From positions 1-40,687 of IMG/VR virus record IMGVR_UViG_3300033144_003065: a DNA stretch of 40,687 bases; one strand, given 5' to 3'. Origin of the DNA: a virus. The notes beneath the pieces were generated by a model. That model searched no databases. It worked only from the letters and a program-made list of their open reading frames with translations, and was not told the DNA's origin. Shown here piece by piece: positions 12,505-25,112 of the stretch. Each line of letters opens with the position of its first letter. Positions within the stretch are counted from its first letter, which is position 1. The translations under genes and the position numbers were made by a program.

Positions 12505-12587
12505 TCTCCATCATAAAATTGAGTTGTATCGCACTTGCGGTGTTTTTTAATTAAAAACATAATAATTGTTTTGAGTATTTGTTTCAT
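12501..12587 (-). CDS. Second gene of the micro-operon, 28 aa
   Basis: 28 residues from ATG 12585-12587. GGGGG lies about nine bases upstream. It overlaps the stop of the gene before it and the start of the gene after it, both as ATGA. The peptide starts MKQILKTIIMFLIKKHRKCD, a short amphipathic or membrane-touching helix flanked by Lys and Arg, and ends in a polar tail. It may be a membrane-active peptide or simply a coupling leader. Real translation is plausible but not certain. Confidence 0.4.
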   Translation of the reverse strand: MKQILKTIIMFLIKKHRKCDTTQFYDGE

Positions 12588-12640
12588 TCGTTGCACCCCC
12601 ATGTCACATAAAACACAAAAATAATAAATGCTAATGTCAT
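12584..12640 (-). CDS. First gene of the micro-operon, 18 aa hydrophobic peptide
   Basis: The 18-residue peptide MTLAFIIFVFYVTWGCNE is encoded from ATG 12638-12640 to TGA 12584-12586. GAGGGAG lies eight bases upstream, a near-ideal ribosome site for so small a frame. It is almost wholly hydrophobic and long enough to cross a membrane once. Its stop overlaps the next start as ATGA. It may be a tiny membrane peptide or a leader that feeds ribosomes into the next genes. Confidence 0.4.
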   Translation of the reverse strand: MTLAFIIFVFYVTWGCNE

Positions 12641-12656
12641 GATTTATTCTCCCTCT

Positions 12657-12824
12657 ATCTTTAGAATAACATGCAAAGGTAAATTATTTGTTAACAAATA
12701 AGCCGGACTTGATTTATATCCGGCTTATAAGCTGATTATGATTTACCATGATCCGAATTTACATTTTAACCTCCACCGATTCGATTATTGCTTGCTTCAT
12801 ATCTTTAGAATACCATGTAAAGGT
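12657..12824 (-). repeat. Direct repeat, possible tandem extended -10 promoters
   Basis: A 24-base element occurs at 12657-12680 and 12801-12824 with 22 of 24 identities, 144 bases apart. On the minus strand both copies read CCTTTRCATGKTATTCTAAAG, containing TGnTATTCT, an extended -10-like box. Each copy lies just ahead of a tiny leftward frame: the micro-operon for the first, a 13-codon frame (MKQAIIESVEVKM) for the second. They may be duplicated leftward promoters or binding sites. Confidence 0.5.
12698..12728 (-). terminator. Hairpin between paralogue A and the micro-operon
   Basis: A perfect 10-bp stem, ATAAGCCGGA (12698-12707) and TCCGGCTTAT (12719-12728), with an 11-base loop. On the minus strand it is followed by TTGTTAAC, a weak T-rich tail, so it could end the leftward transcript from 13138 before the separate micro-operon unit. 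The T tract is poor, so a pausing or regulatory structure is equally possible. Confidence 0.4.
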
Positions 12825-12869
12825 TAATAAAAGGTAAATTTATAAAATATAATTTCGTAGTGTATAGAT

Positions 12870-12919
12870 TGTGGTGGGGAACAAATTAAGAACTCCTTAA
12901 TCACGACAGCCCCACCACA
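12870..12919 (-). ncRNA. Two-tier hairpin, copy 1 of a possible RNA family
   Basis: The outer stem TGTGGTGGGG (12870-12879) and CCCCACCACA (12910-12919) is a perfect 10 bp. An inner stem ATTAAG (12885-12890) and CTTAAT (12896-12901) has a five-base loop. It lies 25 bases past the stop of the leftward gene at 12944. A hairpin at 24460-24511 has the same stem except for two positions that changed on both sides. No T tract follows on the minus strand. Confidence 0.45.
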
Positions 12920-12943
12920 TTCCATGATATATATTATAAAGTG

Positions 12944-13138
12944 TCAACCAATTCTTTGAACTATCACCACTCCGTCAACTGTCCTGCGACGCACCTTTAT
13001 CCCTATTTGTTTTGCTATTTGATACACTCCTGCACAATTGCACTCAAACCGATCTTCTATTTCTAATGTCCTCATAAACTCCGTCAATCCTATATATTGT
13101 GGATCGTTCGGCATCTTTGTATTTACTTTCTTAAACAT
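12944..13138 (-). CDS. Small putative DNA-binding protein, paralogue A
   Basis: 64 residues from ATG 13136-13138 with AAGGA seven bases upstream. It is a paralogue of the 62-residue protein encoded divergently at 13641: both contain GLTxFMxTLxIxDxFE, then about ten residues on xxIGIKxxRRxxDG. In this copy the second half is GVYQIAKQIGIKVRRRTVDG followed by VVIVQRIG, which reads like a helix-turn-helix plus a short hairpin, basic and compact. A role as regulator of the control region is inferred from the motif look and from its location next to promoters and palindromes. A near-consensus promoter lies upstream. Confidence 0.7.
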   Translation of the reverse strand: MFKKVNTKMPNDPQYIGLTEFMRTLEIEDRFECNCAGVYQIAKQIGIKVRRRTVDGVVIVQRIG

Positions 13139-13173
13139 GCGCTATCCTTTCAAATGTTATGACTCATAACCCT

Positions 13174-13202
13174 ATCATATCAATAGTCAATATATCTGTC
13201 AA
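13174..13202 (-). promoter_or_regulatory. Leftward sigma70 promoter for paralogue A
   Basis: Minus strand TTGACA (13197-13202), 17 bases, TATGAT (13174-13179): a perfect -35 and five of six at -10. It sits 36 bases before the start codon. An ATATCAA motif (13177-13183) overlaps the -10 region, where a repressor could act. Confidence 0.75.
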
Positions 13203-13578
13203 TTAAATTCAACTAACTAGTTTCTTCACTAAGTTTCCGAAAGTTTACCGATTCTAGTGAACAAGTCTATACCCCTTAACTCTATGATATATAACAATAA
13301 AAATATAAAATATAGTATATAGTGTATTGTTTCCGTTTTTCTCTGTGTGCCTCTAAAAACGTCTTTTCGTGTGTGAGTCTGTGTCTTTTTGTCTATTTCC
13401 CTCTCTCTATATGACGTAAATCAGGGAACTTTGCTATTTACCATCTTTTATTCAATAATATCAATAATGTACACCGTTTTCTTAAAGGTGAACTTTAAGA
13501 GAAGTTTGGAAACAAGTACGGATTAATCAACAATATCAAGGACTAAAAGTTTCCGTTCATTTTGGGAACAATATAAAC
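13203..13578. other. A+T-rich non-coding region between divergent paralogues; candidate origin or switch
   Basis: No gene is seen. GTTTCCG occurs three times in the same direction (13233, 13329, 13549). ATATCAA occurs at 13458 and 13533 as well as in the flanking promoter at 13177. The stretch 13285-13328 is almost only A and T (ATATAACAATAAAAATATAA). It is followed by about 90 bases nearly without A outside short runs (TTTCCGTTTTTCTCTGTG to TTTCCCTCTCTCTATATG), a pyrimidine and TG-rich strand bias. An easily melted block beside a skewed tract and short repeats resembles a replication origin, but a transcription switch explains it as well. Confidence 0.4.
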
Positions 13579-13607
13579 TTCCACATGTTCACCACCTATG
13601 TTATACT
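13579..13607 (+). promoter_or_regulatory. Rightward promoter for paralogue B and the replication block
   Basis: TTCCAC (13579-13584), 17 bases, TATACT (13602-13607), with TGT directly before the -10, an extended -10 element. It lies 33 bases before the start codon at 13641. It is the mirror of the leftward promoter at 13174, so the two paralogues face away from a shared control region. Confidence 0.6.
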
Positions 13608-13640
13608 AAAATGATAAACTGAATAAATAAGGGAAACAAA

Positions 13641-13829
13641 ATGTTAATCAAAATACTCAACAGACCTATTCCAGAGCGTGAAGGTTTAACTGCATTTATG
13701 AAAACCCTAAAAATAAGCGACTGCTTTGAATATCCCTCAAGGGCACCATATAATGTTTCATACCGGATAGGGATTAAAATAGTGCGCCGAAAAACTGACG
13801 GGATATGGTGTTACTGGCGAATTGCTTAA
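13641..13829 (+). CDS. Small putative DNA-binding protein, paralogue B
   Basis: 62 residues from ATG 13641 with AAGGG eight bases upstream. It aligns along most of its length with the protein encoded divergently at 12944: GLTAFMKTLKISDCFEYPSR, then YNVSYRIGIKIVRRKTDG and a C-terminal WCYWRIA. The conserved IGIKxxRRxxDG part is basic. The N-terminal 15 residues are unrelated between the two. It is the first gene of the long rightward block. A divergent pair of related small basic proteins around a shared control region suggests mutual or autoregulation, which is an inference. Confidence 0.7.
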   Translation: MLIKILNRPIPEREGLTAFMKTLKISDCFEYPSRAPYNVSYRIGIKIVRRKTDGIWCYWRIA

Positions 13830-15391: not shown

Positions 15392-15928
15392 ATGACAATA
15401 CCAGCATATAAATTATTAAATGTAATTACACGAGGCAGCCTTATAAAAAGATATCATACTAGGCAATCGATACACATACAAAATAATGCTGAACATCAAT
15501 TCTTTGTTGTGTCAATAGCCCTCATTTTATACCCTGAAATGGGCATGGAAACACTGAGGAAAATACTATGGCATGATATATACGAATATGAAACGGGGGA
15601 CATGCCTTGGCTGATAAAGCGCAACCACCCCGACTTAAAAAATGTGATGTTTAAAATAGAGCATAAGTGCCGCGAACGGGATCAGTTGTTTACAGAGGTA
15701 ACAACATTTGAACATACCATACTTAAACTTTCAGAATACTTTGAATGTCTCTTATTCTGCTTACGGGAGCGGCGACTAGGCAATTCTGAATTCGATGATA
15801 CAATACAAGATTGTATAGGTTGCATTCTGGAAATAAACGATAAGACACGGGCAGACTCGGATTGTGTAGACTTAGGGGTCAATTCTAGCGTATTATTACG
15901 AGAAGTAAGGGAGGAAGGAAATGTATAA
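15392..15928 (+). CDS. HD-domain nucleotidase / dNTP phosphohydrolase, YfbR- or DatZ-like
   Basis: 178 residues, right for single-domain HD nucleotidases. Motifs: KRYHTRQSIHIQNNAEH (His35), then WHDIYEYETGDMPW with the HD pair His61-Asp62, Glu65 and TGDMP, the hallmark of YfbR-type 5'-deoxynucleotidases and of DatZ-type dATP triphosphohydrolases. The last metal Asp seems replaced by Glu115 in ILKLSEYFECLL, which is unusual. It would remove phosphates from deoxynucleotides in the host cytoplasm. The ATG has GAGGTG upstream. It overlaps the next gene by eight bases and lies 0.3 kb before a dATP/dGTP diphosphohydrolase-family gene, suggesting joint pool editing. Confidence 0.8.
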   Translation: MTIPAYKLLNVITRGSLIKRYHTRQSIHIQNNAEHQFFVVSIALILYPEMGMETLRKILWHDIYEYETGDMPWLIKRNHPDLKNVMFKIEHKCRERDQLFTEVTTFEHTILKLSEYFECLLFCLRERRLGNSEFDDTIQDCIGCILEINDKTRADSDCVDLGVNSSVLLREVREEGNV

Positions 15929-16224: not shown

Positions 16225-16968
16225 ATGGCTGACAAAAAAATAATACAATTAAAAGTAGGTAAAACATACAAGTCACGTAGCGGGGAAATAGTAACAATTG
16301 TGTCTGTTACTGGTGATGGGGTGTATTCATTTGGGGGTGGTAATGGACGTTCTTACACGAAAGAGGGTGTATGGTGGTCAACCGTTAATAATGGTGTACA
16401 CGACCTTATAAGCGAAGTATCAACCCAAGAAAACAAGTGTAAGCGGTGTCCAAACTCAGGGAGTTGTGGTATGTCTTCCTTGCTTAGCCGTGATAAATTA
16501 ATAGGTGCGAAACATGATCGCACTTTTAAAGACACTAACCCAAAAGACGTTGTAGGTACGAAAAAGTGGCGAGTCTTTACAACTATACCTTTGACAGTAA
16601 TAGCAGAACTCGGCGCAGCAATGCTAGAGGGTGCGCGGAAGTACGGGAGGCATAATTACCGAGTTTCCGGGGTACGCGCTTCTGTGTATGTTGACGCTGC
16701 TATAGGACATATTATGCAGTGGTGGGAGGGTGAGGATATCGATATAGATTCTGGCATTTCACACATAACTAAGGCGATGGCTTCTTTAGCAGTTCTGCGG
16801 GACGCTATGATGCAAGAGAAACTGACAGACGACCGCCCACCCAAAGCAAAACTTGCTGCTATACGGGATAATTTACAGGCAATTGTTGATAGTATTTTCA
16901 AACGTCACCCTAACGCAACCACAGCGTATACAGAATTTAATAAACCAGAGGGGGAAAATGATGATTAA
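16225..16968 (+). CDS. dATP/dGTP diphosphohydrolase-family protein (MazZ/DUF5664-like)
   Basis: 247 residues in two parts. Residues 1-60 form a small SH3-like beta domain (LKVGKTYKSRSGEIVTIVSV, YTKEGVWW), followed by a Cys cluster CKRCPNSGSCG (72-82). Residues about 103-195 read DTNPKDVVGTKKW, LGAAMLEGARKYGRHNYR, VDAAIGHIMQWWEGEDID and ISHITKAMASLAVLRDAM, the all-helical NTP-pyrophosphatase family whose phage members (MazZ) turn dGTP or dATP into the monophosphate. It follows the HD nucleotidase in the same operon and precedes the polymerase. The N-terminal Cys and SH3-like module is an extra not needed for catalysis. Confidence 0.78.
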   Translation: MADKKIIQLKVGKTYKSRSGEIVTIVSVTGDGVYSFGGGNGRSYTKEGVWWSTVNNGVHDLISEVSTQENKCKRCPNSGSCGMSSLLSRDKLIGAKHDRTFKDTNPKDVVGTKKWRVFTTIPLTVIAELGAAMLEGARKYGRHNYRVSGVRASVYVDAAIGHIMQWWEGEDIDIDSGISHITKAMASLAVLRDAMMQEKLTDDRPPKAKLAAIRDNLQAIVDSIFKRHPNATTAYTEFNKPEGENDD

Positions 16969-17259: not shown

Positions 17260-19038
17260 ATGTATAGAACAACAGTCATAGATTTTGAAACATATTTTGA
17301 CAGTGAGTACTCACTGAAAAGAATGACGACAGAAGCGTATGTCCGCGATCCCCGTTTTCAAACACACTGCGTGTCTGTTTATTGTGATGATGGGACTCAA
17401 GAGGTTTATACAAAGGATATCAAGGAAAACCTAGAGCCATACATGGATGATTTTGTTATCGCACACCATGCACACTTCGACGGCTTGATATTGTCTCACC
17501 ACTACGGGCTATATCCAAAATACTGGGGTTGCACCCTATCCATGGCGCGGGCACAACTGCAATTTTTAAAGAGCAAAAGTCTAAGCGCTTTGTGTGAATA
17601 CTATGATTTACCAGAGAAAACAATAACTTATAACGCTTTCCGGGGAAAACGAGTGCTTGATCCAGAAACAGAAAAAATGTTAACAGAAGGTTGCCTAGAT
17701 GATTCGCGGCTAACCTTTGAAATTGCTAAACACCTATTAACAGATATCCCAAGTAGTGAACTACAGGTTATTGACTCCACAATTAGAATGTTTACTGAAC
17801 CGTGCCTGACCCTCGATGCAGAAATGATATCCGCTGAATTAACTCGTGTACGAAATGTGAAAGCGGGGGCATTAGAATCACTTGGTGTAGATCGCAAAGA
17901 TTTAATGTCCAGTAAAAAATTTAGTGATTTACTAGAGCGACTAGGGGTGGATACCCCTATGAAACGCTCTGAAAAGCAGGGTAAACTAATACCGGCACTA
18001 GCCAAAACAGATGCGGGGATGAAAGGGCTACTAGTACATGAGAACGAGGTCGTAGCCGCGTTAGCCTCAGCTCGCCTAGGGGAGAAGTCGACTTTATTAG
18101 AAACTCGCTGCGTGCGGTTCCTAGACACCTACAGTCGCGGAGCATTGCCAGTGTACCTAAATTATCATGGAGCTAGACATACTGGCAGATGGTCAGGCGG
18201 GGACAAAATGAATTGGCAGAATCTTATACCAGCGATTAAAAAAGCGGTTTTGGCTCCAGAGGGTTACAAACTAGTCGGCGCGGACGAAGCACAGATTGAA
18301 TGTAGGTTACTGAATTGGTTTGCAGGACAAGACAACATTACCGAGGCGTTTAGAGAGGGGCGGGATATTTACTGTGAAGGTGCGTCTATATTTTTTGGGC
18401 GGACAATCACTAAAAAAGACGTTGCTGAACGAAAGCTAGGGAAAGTGACTGAGTTAGGATCAGGATATGGAGTTGGGGCACCGAAGTTTCAGTCTATCGC
18501 GCTACAACAAGCGAAGCAAAAAATTTCGCTCGCCGAAGCAGAGCGGGCTATTCAGATTTATCGAAATACCCACCCCAAAGTTGTTGGTACGTGGGGTTGT
18601 TTTCAACAGGTCCTCGAGGACATGGATAAAGGATTAGCGCCCTATAAAATTCGGTGTCTAACTATCGATGGATATAAAATAATTATGCCAGATGGCACAG
18701 CCCTTGACTATACAGGGTTACATTGGGAAAATGACGAACAAGATTCAAGAGGTGGAAACTATAAAGTTAGAGATAAAAAAATATACGGAGGTCTTGTTGT
18801 TGAGAATATAATTCAGAAACTTGGTCGGAATTTCACTGCCCGTGTTATAATAAATGTTGACAACAAATACAAATACAAATCAGCTACCACAACTCACGAC
18901 GATATTTTATATGTTGTTAAAAAAGATGATACTACCGCCCTAGATAATATATTGTGTGAAATGCGGACTCCGCCCGACTGGGCACCTGACTTACCACTCG
19001 ATGCTGAGGGTTTTGAAAATGAAAGGTATGACAAATGA
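17260..19038 (+). CDS. Family A DNA polymerase with 3'-5' exonuclease
   Basis: 592 residues. Proofreading motifs: VIDFETYFD (Asp8, Glu10), AHHAHFDGLIL (Asp74) and GCLDDSRLT (Asp147/148). Polymerase motif A is GADEAQIECRLLNWF (Asp342). Motif B is RKLGKVTELGSGYG, giving Arg391, Lys395, Leu399 and Tyr403 with the four-residue spacing of E. coli Pol I Arg754, Lys758, Phe762 and Tyr766, so the Phe762 position is Leu. Motif C is TTHDDILYVV, with His-Asp-Asp instead of His-Asp-Glu. There is no 5'-3' exonuclease domain. It should be the replicative enzyme, working with the primase 0.3 kb downstream. Start ATG 17260 with GGGGG upstream. Confidence 0.93.
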   Translation: MYRTTVIDFETYFDSEYSLKRMTTEAYVRDPRFQTHCVSVYCDDGTQEVYTKDIKENLEPYMDDFVIAHHAHFDGLILSHHYGLYPKYWGCTLSMARAQLQFLKSKSLSALCEYYDLPEKTITYNAFRGKRVLDPETEKMLTEGCLDDSRLTFEIAKHLLTDIPSSELQVIDSTIRMFTEPCLTLDAEMISAELTRVRNVKAGALESLGVDRKDLMSSKKFSDLLERLGVDTPMKRSEKQGKLIPALAKTDAGMKGLLVHENEVVAALASARLGEKSTLLETRCVRFLDTYSRGALPVYLNYHGARHTGRWSGGDKMNWQNLIPAIKKAVLAPEGYKLVGADEAQIECRLLNWFAGQDNITEAFREGRDIYCEGASIFFGRTITKKDVAERKLGKVTELGSGYGVGAPKFQSIALQQAKQKISLAEAERAIQIYRNTHPKVVGTWGCFQQVLEDMDKGLAPYKIRCLTIDGYKIIMPDGTALDYTGLHWENDEQDSRGGNYKVRDKKIYGGLVVENIIQKLGRNFTARVIINVDNKYKYKSATTTHDDILYVVKKDDTTALDNILCEMRTPPDWAPDLPLDAEGFENERYDK

Positions 19039-19302: not shown

Positions 19303-19332
19303 ATGCCGTTTTTTATTGTGGTGTTTAAATGA
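19303..19332 (+). CDS. Nine-codon leader coupled to the primase gene
   Basis: ATG at 19303-19305 with AAGGAG nine bases upstream encodes MPFFIVVFK and stops at TGA 19330-19332. The stop overlaps the primase ATG (19329-19331) as ATGA. The primase start has no good ribosome site of its own, so this mini-frame probably delivers ribosomes to it. Evidence is sequence layout only. Confidence 0.4.
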   Translation: MPFFIVVFK

Positions 19333-21422
19333 GCTTACAAGATGCCATAGAGTACGGAGATCATGGATGGGCTGTGTTCCCTCTGTTACCCCGCAGCAAA
19401 GCCCCAGCTACGCCTAACGGGTTCCATGACGCATCTAAAGACGAAGGCACGATACGATCTATGTGGGGTGCACGCACTAATCTTAATCTAGGTATCGCAA
19501 CTGGAGAGGCGTCTGGATTTTGGGTTTTAGATATAGACTCGGACAAAGGTGGGGATAAATCATTAGAAGAATTAGAGAATAAATATGGATCGTTGCCAGA
19601 AACACTCATCTCGAATACGGGCGGAGGTGGGAAACATTATTTATTTAAAATATCCCACAGTGTGGAGATCGGTTGCTCTATTGGAAAAATTGGAAAAGGA
19701 ATTGATGTTAGAGGAGATGGAGGATATATTGCAGCCCCCCCATCCACCCACCCAAACGGATCACGATACGAATGGGACTCCTCCGCAGATATAGTGGACG
19801 CGCCGGCTTGGTTGCTAAAAATTATATCTGAATTGAAAAAAACACCTGTAAAAACTGAACCGATAGAGGAGGTAGTTGGAGACTGGACAACAGATGATGT
19901 ATTAAATATGTTAGCTGCTGTAAGTCCAGATGATAGAGATATATGGATAACGGTAGGTATGGCACTGAATGAGGCGGGGTTTCCTGTCACAATGTGGGAC
20001 ACTTGGTCACGTGGCAGCAATAAGTATAAGATGGGTGAGTCGTTCAGGATATGGGCTGGATTTAAAAAAGGTGGTGGGGTGTCGATGGGGTCACTTGTGC
20101 ACATGGCGCAAGAAAATGGATGGGCACCAAAAGAGAAACCGTATGAAGAGCTTGACTTCTCAAACATAGGTGGGGTTGACCTACAAGCGTTCAAGGACAA
20201 GTTGTCACCCCCAAAACAATCAAAACCAGAGTTAAAAATTAATATCGGTGGCTTAGTGGGGGATACATTAACATGGATCAATTCAACAGCATTCAAGTTA
20301 CAACCGGAACTTTCTATTATGAATATATTAGCCGCGCTGGGTGCCGTGTTTGGCAGGAGGTATACATTACAAAAATTAAACACAAGAACCAACATATACA
20401 TGGTCGGGATTGCAGAAACGGGGCAGGGCAAAGACAACAGCCGACAAAAGATAAAGCAACTATTGAAATTATCGCAATTGGAGCAGTTCTCCGGTCCTGA
20501 TGATGTTAGATCAGGCGCGGGACTGCTGCTTGAATTGAAGCAGCGACCATCCATACTGGTAAACATGGATGAGATCGGTATGTTTATGAAGGCATTGCTA
20601 GATGCAAAGGCTCCGGCATATATAAAGGAAATATCAAAACTTATAGCCCTGTTATATTCATCTTCTGGGTCGTCGTATACTGGTGGGTTATTAGCGAGTC
20701 AACCTACCGAACGGACGGTACTCTACGAACCGAACCTATGCATCTATGGGACAACGACGATGGATAGTTATTCTGAGGCTATGAGGAGTGCCGCCATTAA
20801 ATCAGGAGAACTTAACAGATTTATTGTGTTAAAATCTTCTACTGATTTTCCAGAACCAAATTTTGAATCTGACAATTCTGAGCCGCCGGAAGCCCTTATA
20901 TCTCGGTGGGCTCTGTTTAAAACAGAAGGGCTCGAAGCAGCACCGGATATTATTGAACAGAGAAAGACAATTGTAATGCTAGGTAAAATGGGTAAAAGAG
21001 TTAACGAACTTTTCCGGTTTCAAGATAGTATGATTAAGAAACACCGCGCTACGGGGCTGGGTGCACTGTGGGTGCGATATAGGGAAAACATTTTGAAGGT
21101 AGCAATGATTATCGCTATCGCTCGTGACCCGGAGTCACCAACGTTAATTGAATCTGATTTAGACTTCGGAGAAGCACTGGTCGGCGCGAGCATCCGGTTT
21201 ATGATGAAGTTTGCTGTAGAAAATATGTATGACGGCGACTTCCAAAAGAGGTGTTCTGAGTTTATGGTTGCGCTAGAAAGTGGAGCTATGAACAGAACAT
21301 CTATGATACGACGGCTGAAAATAAAATCAAAAGAGTTGGATGAGATAGAACGGACGCTAAAAGAGATGGATAAAATTACGTACGACGAAAAAGAACGACC
21401 AAAAAAATATATTTTGAGGTAA
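19329..21422 (+). CDS. Bifunctional primase-polymerase with C-terminal ATPase
   Basis: 697 residues in three parts. Residues 8-165 are an archaeo-eukaryotic primase (Prim-Pol): WAVFPLLPRSKAP, WVLDIDSD with the catalytic Asp68 and Asp70, TGGGGKHYLF with His103, and GIDVRGDGGYIAAPPS. Residues about 185-270 look like PriCT-2 (WTTDDVLNMLAAVSPDDRD, WDTWSRGS, IWAGFKKGGGVSMGSL). Residues 300-690 are a DUF3987-like ATPase with VGIAETGQGKDN (Lys368) and ILVNMDEIG (Asp414, Glu415). The P-loop has Asp after Lys where Ser or Thr is usual, a point to check. It should prime and unwind DNA for the polymerase upstream. Translation is probably coupled to the nine-codon leader. Confidence 0.88.
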   Translation: MSLQDAIEYGDHGWAVFPLLPRSKAPATPNGFHDASKDEGTIRSMWGARTNLNLGIATGEASGFWVLDIDSDKGGDKSLEELENKYGSLPETLISNTGGGGKHYLFKISHSVEIGCSIGKIGKGIDVRGDGGYIAAPPSTHPNGSRYEWDSSADIVDAPAWLLKIISELKKTPVKTEPIEEVVGDWTTDDVLNMLAAVSPDDRDIWITVGMALNEAGFPVTMWDTWSRGSNKYKMGESFRIWAGFKKGGGVSMGSLVHMAQENGWAPKEKPYEELDFSNIGGVDLQAFKDKLSPPKQSKPELKINIGGLVGDTLTWINSTAFKLQPELSIMNILAALGAVFGRRYTLQKLNTRTNIYMVGIAETGQGKDNSRQKIKQLLKLSQLEQFSGPDDVRSGAGLLLELKQRPSILVNMDEIGMFMKALLDAKAPAYIKEISKLIALLYSSSGSSYTGGLLASQPTERTVLYEPNLCIYGTTTMDSYSEAMRSAAIKSGELNRFIVLKSSTDFPEPNFESDNSEPPEALISRWALFKTEGLEAAPDIIEQRKTIVMLGKMGKRVNELFRFQDSMIKKHRATGLGALWVRYRENILKVAMIIAIARDPESPTLIESDLDFGEALVGASIRFMMKFAVENMYDGDFQKRCSEFMVALESGAMNRTSMIRRLKIKSKELDEIERTLKEMDKITYDEKERPKKYILR

Positions 21423-21427
21423 AAAAC

Positions 21428-22423
21428 ATGATTGTATTATCGTTATTTGACGGCATGGCATGTGGTTATGAAGCTCTTAAACAGGCGGGGGTGCCAGTCA
21501 CTAAGTATTACGCTAGTGAAATAGACAAGTATGCCATCCAGATCGCTAAAAAGAATCACCCAGATATTATACATCTTGGTGATGTTACAGACTGGAAAGA
21601 GTGGGATATTGAACCGCCAGACTTAATTATGGGTGGCTCCCCCTGTCAAGGATTCTCTTTTGCCGGTAAACAACTCGCATTCGATGATCCGAGATCAAAG
21701 TTATTCTTCACAATGATTGACATTATAGACAACTATAAACCTCAGTATAAACTCCTTGAAAATGTGAAAATGAAAAAAGAATATCTTGATACCATCACTG
21801 AATATATGGGTGTTGAACCTTTATTTATTAATTCTGCGCTGGTATCGGCACAAAATAGGCAAAGGTATTACTGGTATAACTGGGGTGCACCTTTGCCAGA
21901 GGATAGGGGTATTCTTTTGAAAGACATAGTTGAGGGGGGCACCACCAACTATGTCACTGGTGGGGGTGTACGGGGGCGTTACATTGTGGATGGTAAACGA
22001 CAGGATCACAAAATGAAAACTGCCGGATTAACAACCCAAAGACTTGAAGTCAGGAAAGATGGTAAAACTAACACACTCACAACAGTACAGAAAGATAATG
22101 TGTGCGTCGAAGTTTTTAAAAAAGAGCACACTTTAATTGAAATCGGGAAAGCGGACATCAAAGGGTATGATATTACCAAGCGAGTTTATTCACCAGAAGG
22201 CAAGTGCCCGAGTTTACTAGCGGTAAGCGGGGGGCACCAAGAGAAAAAAGTGTCTACAGACGGGCTTACATGGCGGAAGCTCACACCAATAGAATGTGAA
22301 AGACTACAAACAATACCGGACAATTATACTGAGGGTGTATCAAACACTCAACGCTATAAGATGTTGGGTAATGGCTGGACAGTAGATGTTGTAGCACACC
22401 TGTTTAAATATATTTTACAATAA
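21428..22423 (+). CDS. DNA (cytosine-5-)-methyltransferase
   Basis: 331 residues with the ordered motifs of C5-cytosine methyltransferases: motif I LSLFDGMACGYEAL (SAM binding), motif IV GGSPCQGFSFAGKQ with catalytic Cys73, motif VI LLENV (Glu111), motif VIII QNRQRYYW, motif IX RKLTPIECERLQTIPDNYT and motif X MLGNGWTVDV. The target-recognition part is roughly residues 170-265. No restriction enzyme gene lies beside it, so it is an orphan phage enzyme, most likely protecting phage DNA from host restriction. The ATG lies five bases after the primase stop, in the same operon. Confidence 0.93.
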   Translation: MIVLSLFDGMACGYEALKQAGVPVTKYYASEIDKYAIQIAKKNHPDIIHLGDVTDWKEWDIEPPDLIMGGSPCQGFSFAGKQLAFDDPRSKLFFTMIDIIDNYKPQYKLLENVKMKKEYLDTITEYMGVEPLFINSALVSAQNRQRYYWYNWGAPLPEDRGILLKDIVEGGTTNYVTGGGVRGRYIVDGKRQDHKMKTAGLTTQRLEVRKDGKTNTLTTVQKDNVCVEVFKKEHTLIEIGKADIKGYDITKRVYSPEGKCPSLLAVSGGHQEKKVSTDGLTWRKLTPIECERLQTIPDNYTEGVSNTQRYKMLGNGWTVDVVAHLFKYILQ

Positions 22424-24533: not shown

Positions 24534-25112
24534 ATGGGACTGAATAAAAGGTATTTAACTGCGGGCAGAAATAAAGAAAGTGATGAGTGTTTAACCCCTC
24601 GTTATGGTGTGTTACCTATAGTGCCTTACTTAAAGTCTCGCGGCTATAAGCGGATATGTTGTCCTTTTGACAGACCTGATTCTATGTTTGTCCGCGTGTT
24701 AAAATCAGAGGGATTCCATGTGCAGTATAGTCACATAGATGGAGGTGTTGACTTTTTTGATTTGACTAGAGACGATATGTGCGACTGTGTCGTTAGTAAC
24801 CCCCCATTTTCTCTCAAAGATCGTATTCTGAAACGGTTGTATGAGCTTGAAACCCCGTTTGCGATTCTCCTCCCACAAAACTCTTTACAAAGCACTAAAC
24901 GAGTACCTTTGTTTATGAAATATAGATTAGAATACTTGGGTTTTGATCGGAGAATATGTTTTTATACAAATAACAATCCAAAACTTTGGAGGGCTGGAAA
25001 CCATTTTGCTAGTGGTTATTTTTGTAAAGATGTGTTAACTGAGATATTTTTATTTGAAAAATTAGCACCGATACAGGAACACTATTACGAGTTTGGAGCG
25101 ATACCATGGTAA
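24534..25112 (+). CDS. NPPF methyltransferase-like protein
   Basis: 192 residues. The centre reads CDCVVSNPPFSLKDRILKRL (about residues 82-101), with the NPPF tetrad that contacts the target amino group in N6-adenine and N4-cytosine methyltransferases. Before it are CCPFDRPDSMFVRVL and YSHIDGGVDFFDLT; after it FAILLPQNSLQS and LGFDRRICFYT. This arrangement is a common small phage family. A canonical glycine-rich SAM motif I is not obvious; the CPFD region may take its place. It could methylate adenine in DNA or be a degenerate relative. The ATG follows GGGTGTGA. The next gene overlaps its end by seven bases. Confidence 0.7.
   Translation: MGLNKRYLTAGRNKESDECLTPRYGVLPIVPYLKSRGYKRICCPFDRPDSMFVRVLKSEGFHVQYSHIDGGVDFFDLTRDDMCDCVVSNPPFSLKDRILKRLYELETPFAILLPQNSLQSTKRVPLFMKYRLEYLGFDRRICFYTNNNPKLWRAGNHFASGYFCKDVLTEIFLFEKLAPIQEHYYEFGAIPW

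Follow-up and report, generated by a model that had tools for sequence, protein, structure and literature searches.

Two divergent paralogous genes in a 40.7-kb virus genome: predicted members of a widespread phage protein family commonly placed between an A+T-rich gap and a replicative helicase or primase-polymerase gene

Two small related genes that diverge from a common A+T-rich region raise the question of what their products do and what role the region between them plays. The locus considered here lies in a window of 40,687 nucleotides (the whole stretch of DNA that was analyzed), which is a 40.7-kb virus genome, and its features are collected in Table 1. A check of the sequence confirmed both open reading frames, P0001 and P0002, with the positions, lengths and shared motifs that a first-pass annotation had ascribed to them. 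Their description as small basic paralogues set divergently around one A+T-rich region was also borne out, the two proteins being 44% identical over 52 aligned amino acids (E = 1e-14). No third copy was present in the record, where a profile of the pair matched only P0001 and P0002 (next frame, E = 0.034). Scans of viral contigs and bacterial genomes gave a sole other copy of the locus, in one contig 99.8% identical to the record, in which the sequence of P0001 is unchanged. So, the observation made in the first pass was confirmed, and the interpretation attached to it was supported in part, as detailed below.

Table 1. Features of the divergent locus and of related elements in the window.
Feature	Positions	Strand	Basis or remark
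P0001, 64 aa, pI 9.4, predicted alpha-beta-alpha-beta-beta fold	12944–13138	−	SD AAGGAT at 13144–13149; gene-like codon usage
P0002, 62 aa, pI 9.9, paralogue of P0001	13641–13829	+	SD AAGGGA at 13629–13634; codon usage weakly gene-like
Divergent control region, 502 bp, 69% A+T; candidate origin/operator	13139–13640		Composition; analogy with relatives
Most A+T-rich 50-bp stretch in the genome, 88%; putative unwinding element	13283–13332		Composition scan
P0001 promoter, sigma-70 type, TTGACA-17-TATGAT, extended −10 (TG)	13174–13202	−	11/12 matches
P0002 promoter, weak, TCCACA-16-TATACT, TG before −10	13580–13607	+	9/12 matches, could be chance
Palindrome GTTATGACTCATAAC, operator-like, over the likely leftward transcript start	13156–13170		Single copy in genome
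Inverted repeat TCTTAAAG-GTGAA-CTTTAAGA	13480–13500		Modest
GTTTCC copy 1	13233–13238	+	
GTTTCC copy 2	13329–13334	+	
GTTTCC copy 3	13508–13513	−	
GTTTCC copy 4	13549–13554	+	
GTTTCC copy 5	13632–13637	−	On the P0002 ribosome-binding site, may not count
Strong RNA hairpin immediately past P0001, z = −3.7; the leftward transcript likely ends here	12864–12925	−	No clear U-run
Perfect 10-bp-stem hairpin, z = −4.7; second leftward (or two-way) terminator candidate	12698–12728		
Primase-polymerase with DUF3987 helicase domain	19329–21422	+	Closest relatives have a family member immediately upstream

The structures of both proteins were predicted with AlphaFold2, the input being an alignment of the two paralogues only. 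The same fold class was obtained for both, rather than differing folds: a disordered start followed by helix, strand, helix and hairpin (alpha-beta-alpha-beta-beta), with mean pLDDT values of 74 and 77. This prediction, together with the absence of any helix-turn-helix match in Pfam, contradicts the helix-turn-helix-like character earlier assigned to the pair and, at the same time, agrees with the remark that neither protein looks like a known CI/Cro protein. Searches of Pfam, PHROG and PDB sequences with the pair gave no matches, tblastn against named phages gave nothing credible, and nothing significant was found in a PDB fold search, i.e., no solved structure of known function matched. Two candidates were discarded: LAGLIDADG-like PDB fold matches, which were weak (E 0.26 and above), and a MerR/excisionase-like C-terminus of P0001, suggested by a single tblastn match with E = 4 and ruled out by the predicted fold. 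On the other hand, a Foldseek search against viral predictions returned dozens of small uncharacterised phage proteins with probability around 1.0 (best E 3.5e-4). The entries of Sa179lw and KFS-SE2, tied to their genes by protein length and pattern and not by accession, were matched with probability 0.98–1.0. The same fold was found in AB1gp55 (PHROG 24963/38521), Lana gp54 and BcepNazgul gp16, whose genes lie inside operons and not at a divergent gap.

Concerning the relationship by sequence, a family profile was built from ten relatives, with the window proteins left out, and was run against the 6,303 open frames of all the fetched loci. P0001 came third among about 6,290 unrelated frames (E 0.077), the best of these being Lana gp54, AB1gp55 and P0001 itself (E 0.03–0.08), all of them either fold matches or fold queries. 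P0001 also scored above every one of 2,000 shuffles of its own sequence (11.9 versus 9.6 bits). Profile-profile comparison of the pair with the relatives gave a probability of 52% (P 1.4e-4) over the C-terminal half, and, conversely, when the window pair served as query, the Vibrio leader proteins ranked top. P0002 alone gave no score against the relatives' profile, and its assignment to the family runs through P0001 and the fold. The family is marked by the C-terminal pattern G-x-K-x(2-3)-R/K-x(2-3)-D-G-x(3-4)-R-I/V. The predicted folds, taken with the profile scores, suggest that both proteins belong to a widespread but uncharacterised group of basic phage proteins, 55–80 residues long, with an alpha-beta-alpha-beta-beta fold. 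The idea that the pair could be new minimal proteins was therefore abandoned. Annotation of the family so far reads only "hypothetical protein", and a literature search on the family or on its operon layout gave nothing specific.

As to the genomic context, Pfam and PHROG scans of the ORFs delimited a rightward block of early/replication genes from 13.6 to 27.5 kb, with the structural genes running leftward. P0002 is the opening gene of the block and P0001 has the opposite orientation. The block codes for an HD-domain deoxynucleotidase, a MazG-like dATP/dGTP hydrolase, PolA, a primase-polymerase with a DUF3987 helicase domain, a cytosine methylase, a Sak4-like annealing protein, an SSB-like protein, a Cas4-like nuclease and a helicase. 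The primase-polymerase is not adjacent to P0002: they are 5.5 kb apart, with other genes between them. The genes at 15392–15928, 16225–16968 and 17260–19038 (HD-type dATP phosphohydrolase-like, MazG-like dATP/dGTP hydrolase and PolA) are reminiscent of the DatZ/MazZ/DpoZ set found in 2-aminoadenine (Z) phages, but the ORFs scanned in the record included no PurZ. Two DNA methylases are encoded at 21428–22423 and 24534–25112. The cumulative GC skew has its minimum at 10–14 kb, but the skew tracks gene direction.

Divergent paralogues sharing one region, with outward promoters, evoke a CI/Cro-like bistable switch, and the layout of a genetic switch was indeed the first reading of this locus. It was not sustained by the non-helix-turn-helix fold, nor by the gene content, as no integrase, CI-like repressor or other lysogeny gene appeared among about 40 ORFs scanned against PHROGs. 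Furthermore, the relatives studied carry a single family copy on the replication arm, with no partner on the opposite arm. A bistable switch is hence regarded as the least probable of the explanations considered, and by a long way improbable in itself.

In the relatives, the family gene occupies a recurrent slot, which was found in phages of Escherichia, Salmonella, Klebsiella and Vibrio. A divergent A+T-rich gap of about 500–660 bp precedes the gene wherever both sides were seen, and a helicase (DUF3987-type) or a primase-polymerase is encoded directly 3′ of it in 13 of the 13 relatives fetched, usually with overlapping stop and start. In one of these 13, ECO95, a second family domain is interposed between the member and the primase-polymerase, the latter being 94% identical to that of Sa179lw. 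In this Escherichia phage there are two adjacent family members (L013:2483-3141), the second one being the C-terminal half of a 145-aa ORF. P0002 and P0001 are likewise the first genes at a divergent A+T-rich gap of about 500 bp, a position that is common, not universal, in the family. The pair coincides with the leaders of PHROG 28700 (Sa179lw, Sf11 gp1), PHROG 28399 (Skate gp63, KFS-SE2), Vibrio 1.199.B gp72 and 207E29.1 p0018 in fold, C-terminal pattern and location of the gene as the first one at a divergent gap. Those leaders have the helicase or primase-polymerase directly next and, mostly, strong repeats, whereas the window has a divergent second copy, intervening genes and weak repeats.

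An out-of-sample test was run on the closest relatives of the window's primase-polymerase, among which the Vibrio phages H188 and 1.030.O had been absent from the profile build. Both encode a 77-aa protein immediately before the primase-polymerase, and these proteins matched the family profile with E values of 4e-11 and 4e-12. In H40/1 and C7 the primase-polymerase is of this kind and the gap is present, but the small gene, or any family member, is absent. In Serratia phage BUCT805 the slot is taken by an unrelated 77-aa protein (L035:7619-7852), helix-turn-helix-like by eye only, which overlaps the primase-polymerase start. As the member is missing from two of these phages and replaced by an unrelated protein in a third one, its function is not universal.

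The gaps of the relatives contain lineage-specific 6–7-mers, mostly in 5–11 copies and on both strands: TATTTGCC in Sa179lw, CGCTTCCC in ECO95 and Sf11, TTATCC in the Skate group (weak in the Klebsiella phages), CGTGTCAT in the Vibrio 1.199.B group and CTGTGTAAT in K396. The counts for Sf11 are valid for a 652-bp stretch only, since the start of the record recurs at its end. Of about 1,190 control windows, few or none attained the repeat scores of the relatives, with the Klebsiella pair standing out only weakly. Most of these gaps have, alongside the repeats, a core of 80–94% A+T, a combination that in most relatives is origin-like in design; of these two elements, the A+T core is present in the window and the repeats are weak there. 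No strong repeats were found in the gaps of H188 and 1.030.O, so the repeats are common, not obligatory.

In the window itself, the gap had been described as A+T-rich and with repeated short motifs. The first part holds, and repeats are indeed present, but their excess is borderline. GTTTCC occurs five times, on both strands, against 0.22 copies expected (genome scan p = 0.003), a score equalled by about 1.4% of ordinary control windows of about 500 bp. When the copy on the ribosome-binding site was dropped, the excess of the other four was borderline, and so it was with a degenerate version of the motif. Palindromes of the GTTATGACTCATAAC kind are not more numerous than expected by chance, and a DNA hairpin in the A+T core was not significant. 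Each gene was also said to have its own outward promoter; a good promoter sequence was found for the leftward one, the rightward one being a weak candidate. The region has 17 promoter-like sites versus 12.8 ± 3.9 in shuffles, i.e., no excess. Past the end of P0001, the stretch 12505–12943 is non-coding; it has a pair of strong hairpins and a direct repeat of 46 bp that is imperfect, and 59 bp of it (12728–12786) are missing from the 99.8%-identical contig.

Natural exchanges between related phages are informative on the role of the slot. When Vibrio 1.199.B is compared to 207E29.1, SY and 455E52, a distant family member is seen to take the place of the entire small gene, and about 70 bp upstream of it are exchanged too. 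The swapped segment has sharp borders, beginning immediately past the last cluster of repeats and ending where the helicase starts (L017:1780-2720 versus L019:2356-3200), with the repeat region preserved on one flank and, on the other, a helicase with 98–99% protein identity; over repeats and helicase, identity amounts to about 95–99%. The same sort of replacement distinguishes the Skate-type from the Klebsiella phages, next to a helicase that is 87% identical. Since distant members are exchanged while the helicase remains 87–99% identical, it seems that the slot requires a member of this family. Concerning Sf11 and Sa179lw, their small proteins are 84% identical and their primase-polymerases 93% identical, with entirely different repeats; the Sf11 repeat is shared with ECO95, though the small protein of the latter is only 47% identical. 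Between Sa179lw (L009:30190-30851) and Sf11 (L024:734-1385) the A+T core and the flanking genes are kept, and the changes in the primase-polymerase cluster near residues 737–766. As the repeats can remain unchanged when the member is exchanged, or vice versa, it is unlikely that the repeats are read by the family member alone. What the member itself targets may be the stretch of about 70 bp exchanged next to its start, as a swapped cassette that includes this stretch is what would be expected of a protein paired with its own operator.

These comparisons bear on the possibility that the family members are sequence-specific, origin-binding initiators that would recognize the scattered repeats and load the helicase. 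The location of the gene between repeats and helicase, its translational overlap with the helicase gene and the strong repeats of most relatives would agree with such a role. It is nevertheless made rather improbable by the dissimilar small proteins that accompany the same repeats in 1.199.B and 207E29.1, by the TTATCC-like repeats kept in both Skate-type and Klebsiella-type phages, by the discordance between protein and repeat similarity in Sf11, Sa179lw and ECO95, and by the borderline repeats of the window. The exchange of cassettes between near-identical phages could be interpreted otherwise, by considering the members as early accessory or host-takeover proteins (e.g., for anti-defence or host inhibition), encoded first in early operons and swapped with their own promoter. 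The genes are small, fast-evolving and duplicated, and H40/1 and C7 do without a member, all of which would suit this interpretation. However, the replacement is a family member of the same fold in the same slot, and the pairing and overlap with replicative helicases are constant across unrelated phages, so that an accessory role is considered possible but unlikely.

The single-sided arrangement of the relatives, with no member seen on the opposite arm, could also mean that only P0002 has a role, P0001 being a redundant or decaying copy. P0001, however, has a stronger promoter, better codon usage and a better match to the family profile than P0002; it is preceded by a ribosome-binding site and followed by a strong hairpin, and is unchanged in the near-identical contig. 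A redundant or decaying P0001 is thus very unlikely.

The explanation favoured here, to which a probability of about 0.5 is given, is that the family acts as a DNA-binding leader and autoregulator of the operon for replication, at what is likely an origin, and that it was duplicated divergently in this phage. It builds on the observed paralogy, fold class, shared slot and repeats of the relatives; on this view the proteins would bind DNA and regulate their own synthesis, the gap would work as an origin, and its promoters would be in use. The family gene would commonly be a leader placed between the divergent A+T-rich gap, with the likely origin and promoters, and the helicase or primase-polymerase gene. 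The leader proteins would bind gap DNA, exert autoregulation at the promoters on either side and/or promote or hold back the loading of the helicase at the origin. Duplication of the leader gene in this phage would have provided each arm with a copy of its own at the head, and the palindrome over the leftward start would be a candidate operator. So, from the earlier alternative between a minimal switch and an origin-associated regulator pair, only the second term is retained, in line with the occurrence of the relatives at repeat-rich divergent gaps before replicative helicases.

Among known systems, CI/Cro and the O/ori iterons of lambda resemble the window in having divergent regulators and repeats beside replication genes. 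They differ from it in that the fold of the family is another one, no lysogeny genes were found in the record, and the repeats do not follow the small protein. Plasmid pRN1 encodes a small ribbon-helix-helix protein, ORF56. ORF56 is a transcriptional repressor whose gene lies directly before that of the primase-polymerase/helicase ORF904, in a minimal replicon (PMC4234260). The likeness of the leader genes to this arrangement is positional and serves as a working model, with no homology claimed.

In a bolder and more tentative extension of the leader/autoregulator reading, which we consider unlikely as it stands, the family would be an exchangeable new class of replication-initiation regulators with an unfamiliar DNA-binding fold, and the two divergent paralogues of this phage would keep leftward and rightward firing from a single origin/promoter region in balance. 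Independently of this extension, confirmation of a regulatory role for the family, in its slot between a likely origin and the replicative helicase, would add a new type of regulator of phage replication and draw attention to a whole class of phage origins that are still unmapped. The swap in place between near-identical Vibrio phages constitutes a ready-made natural experiment.
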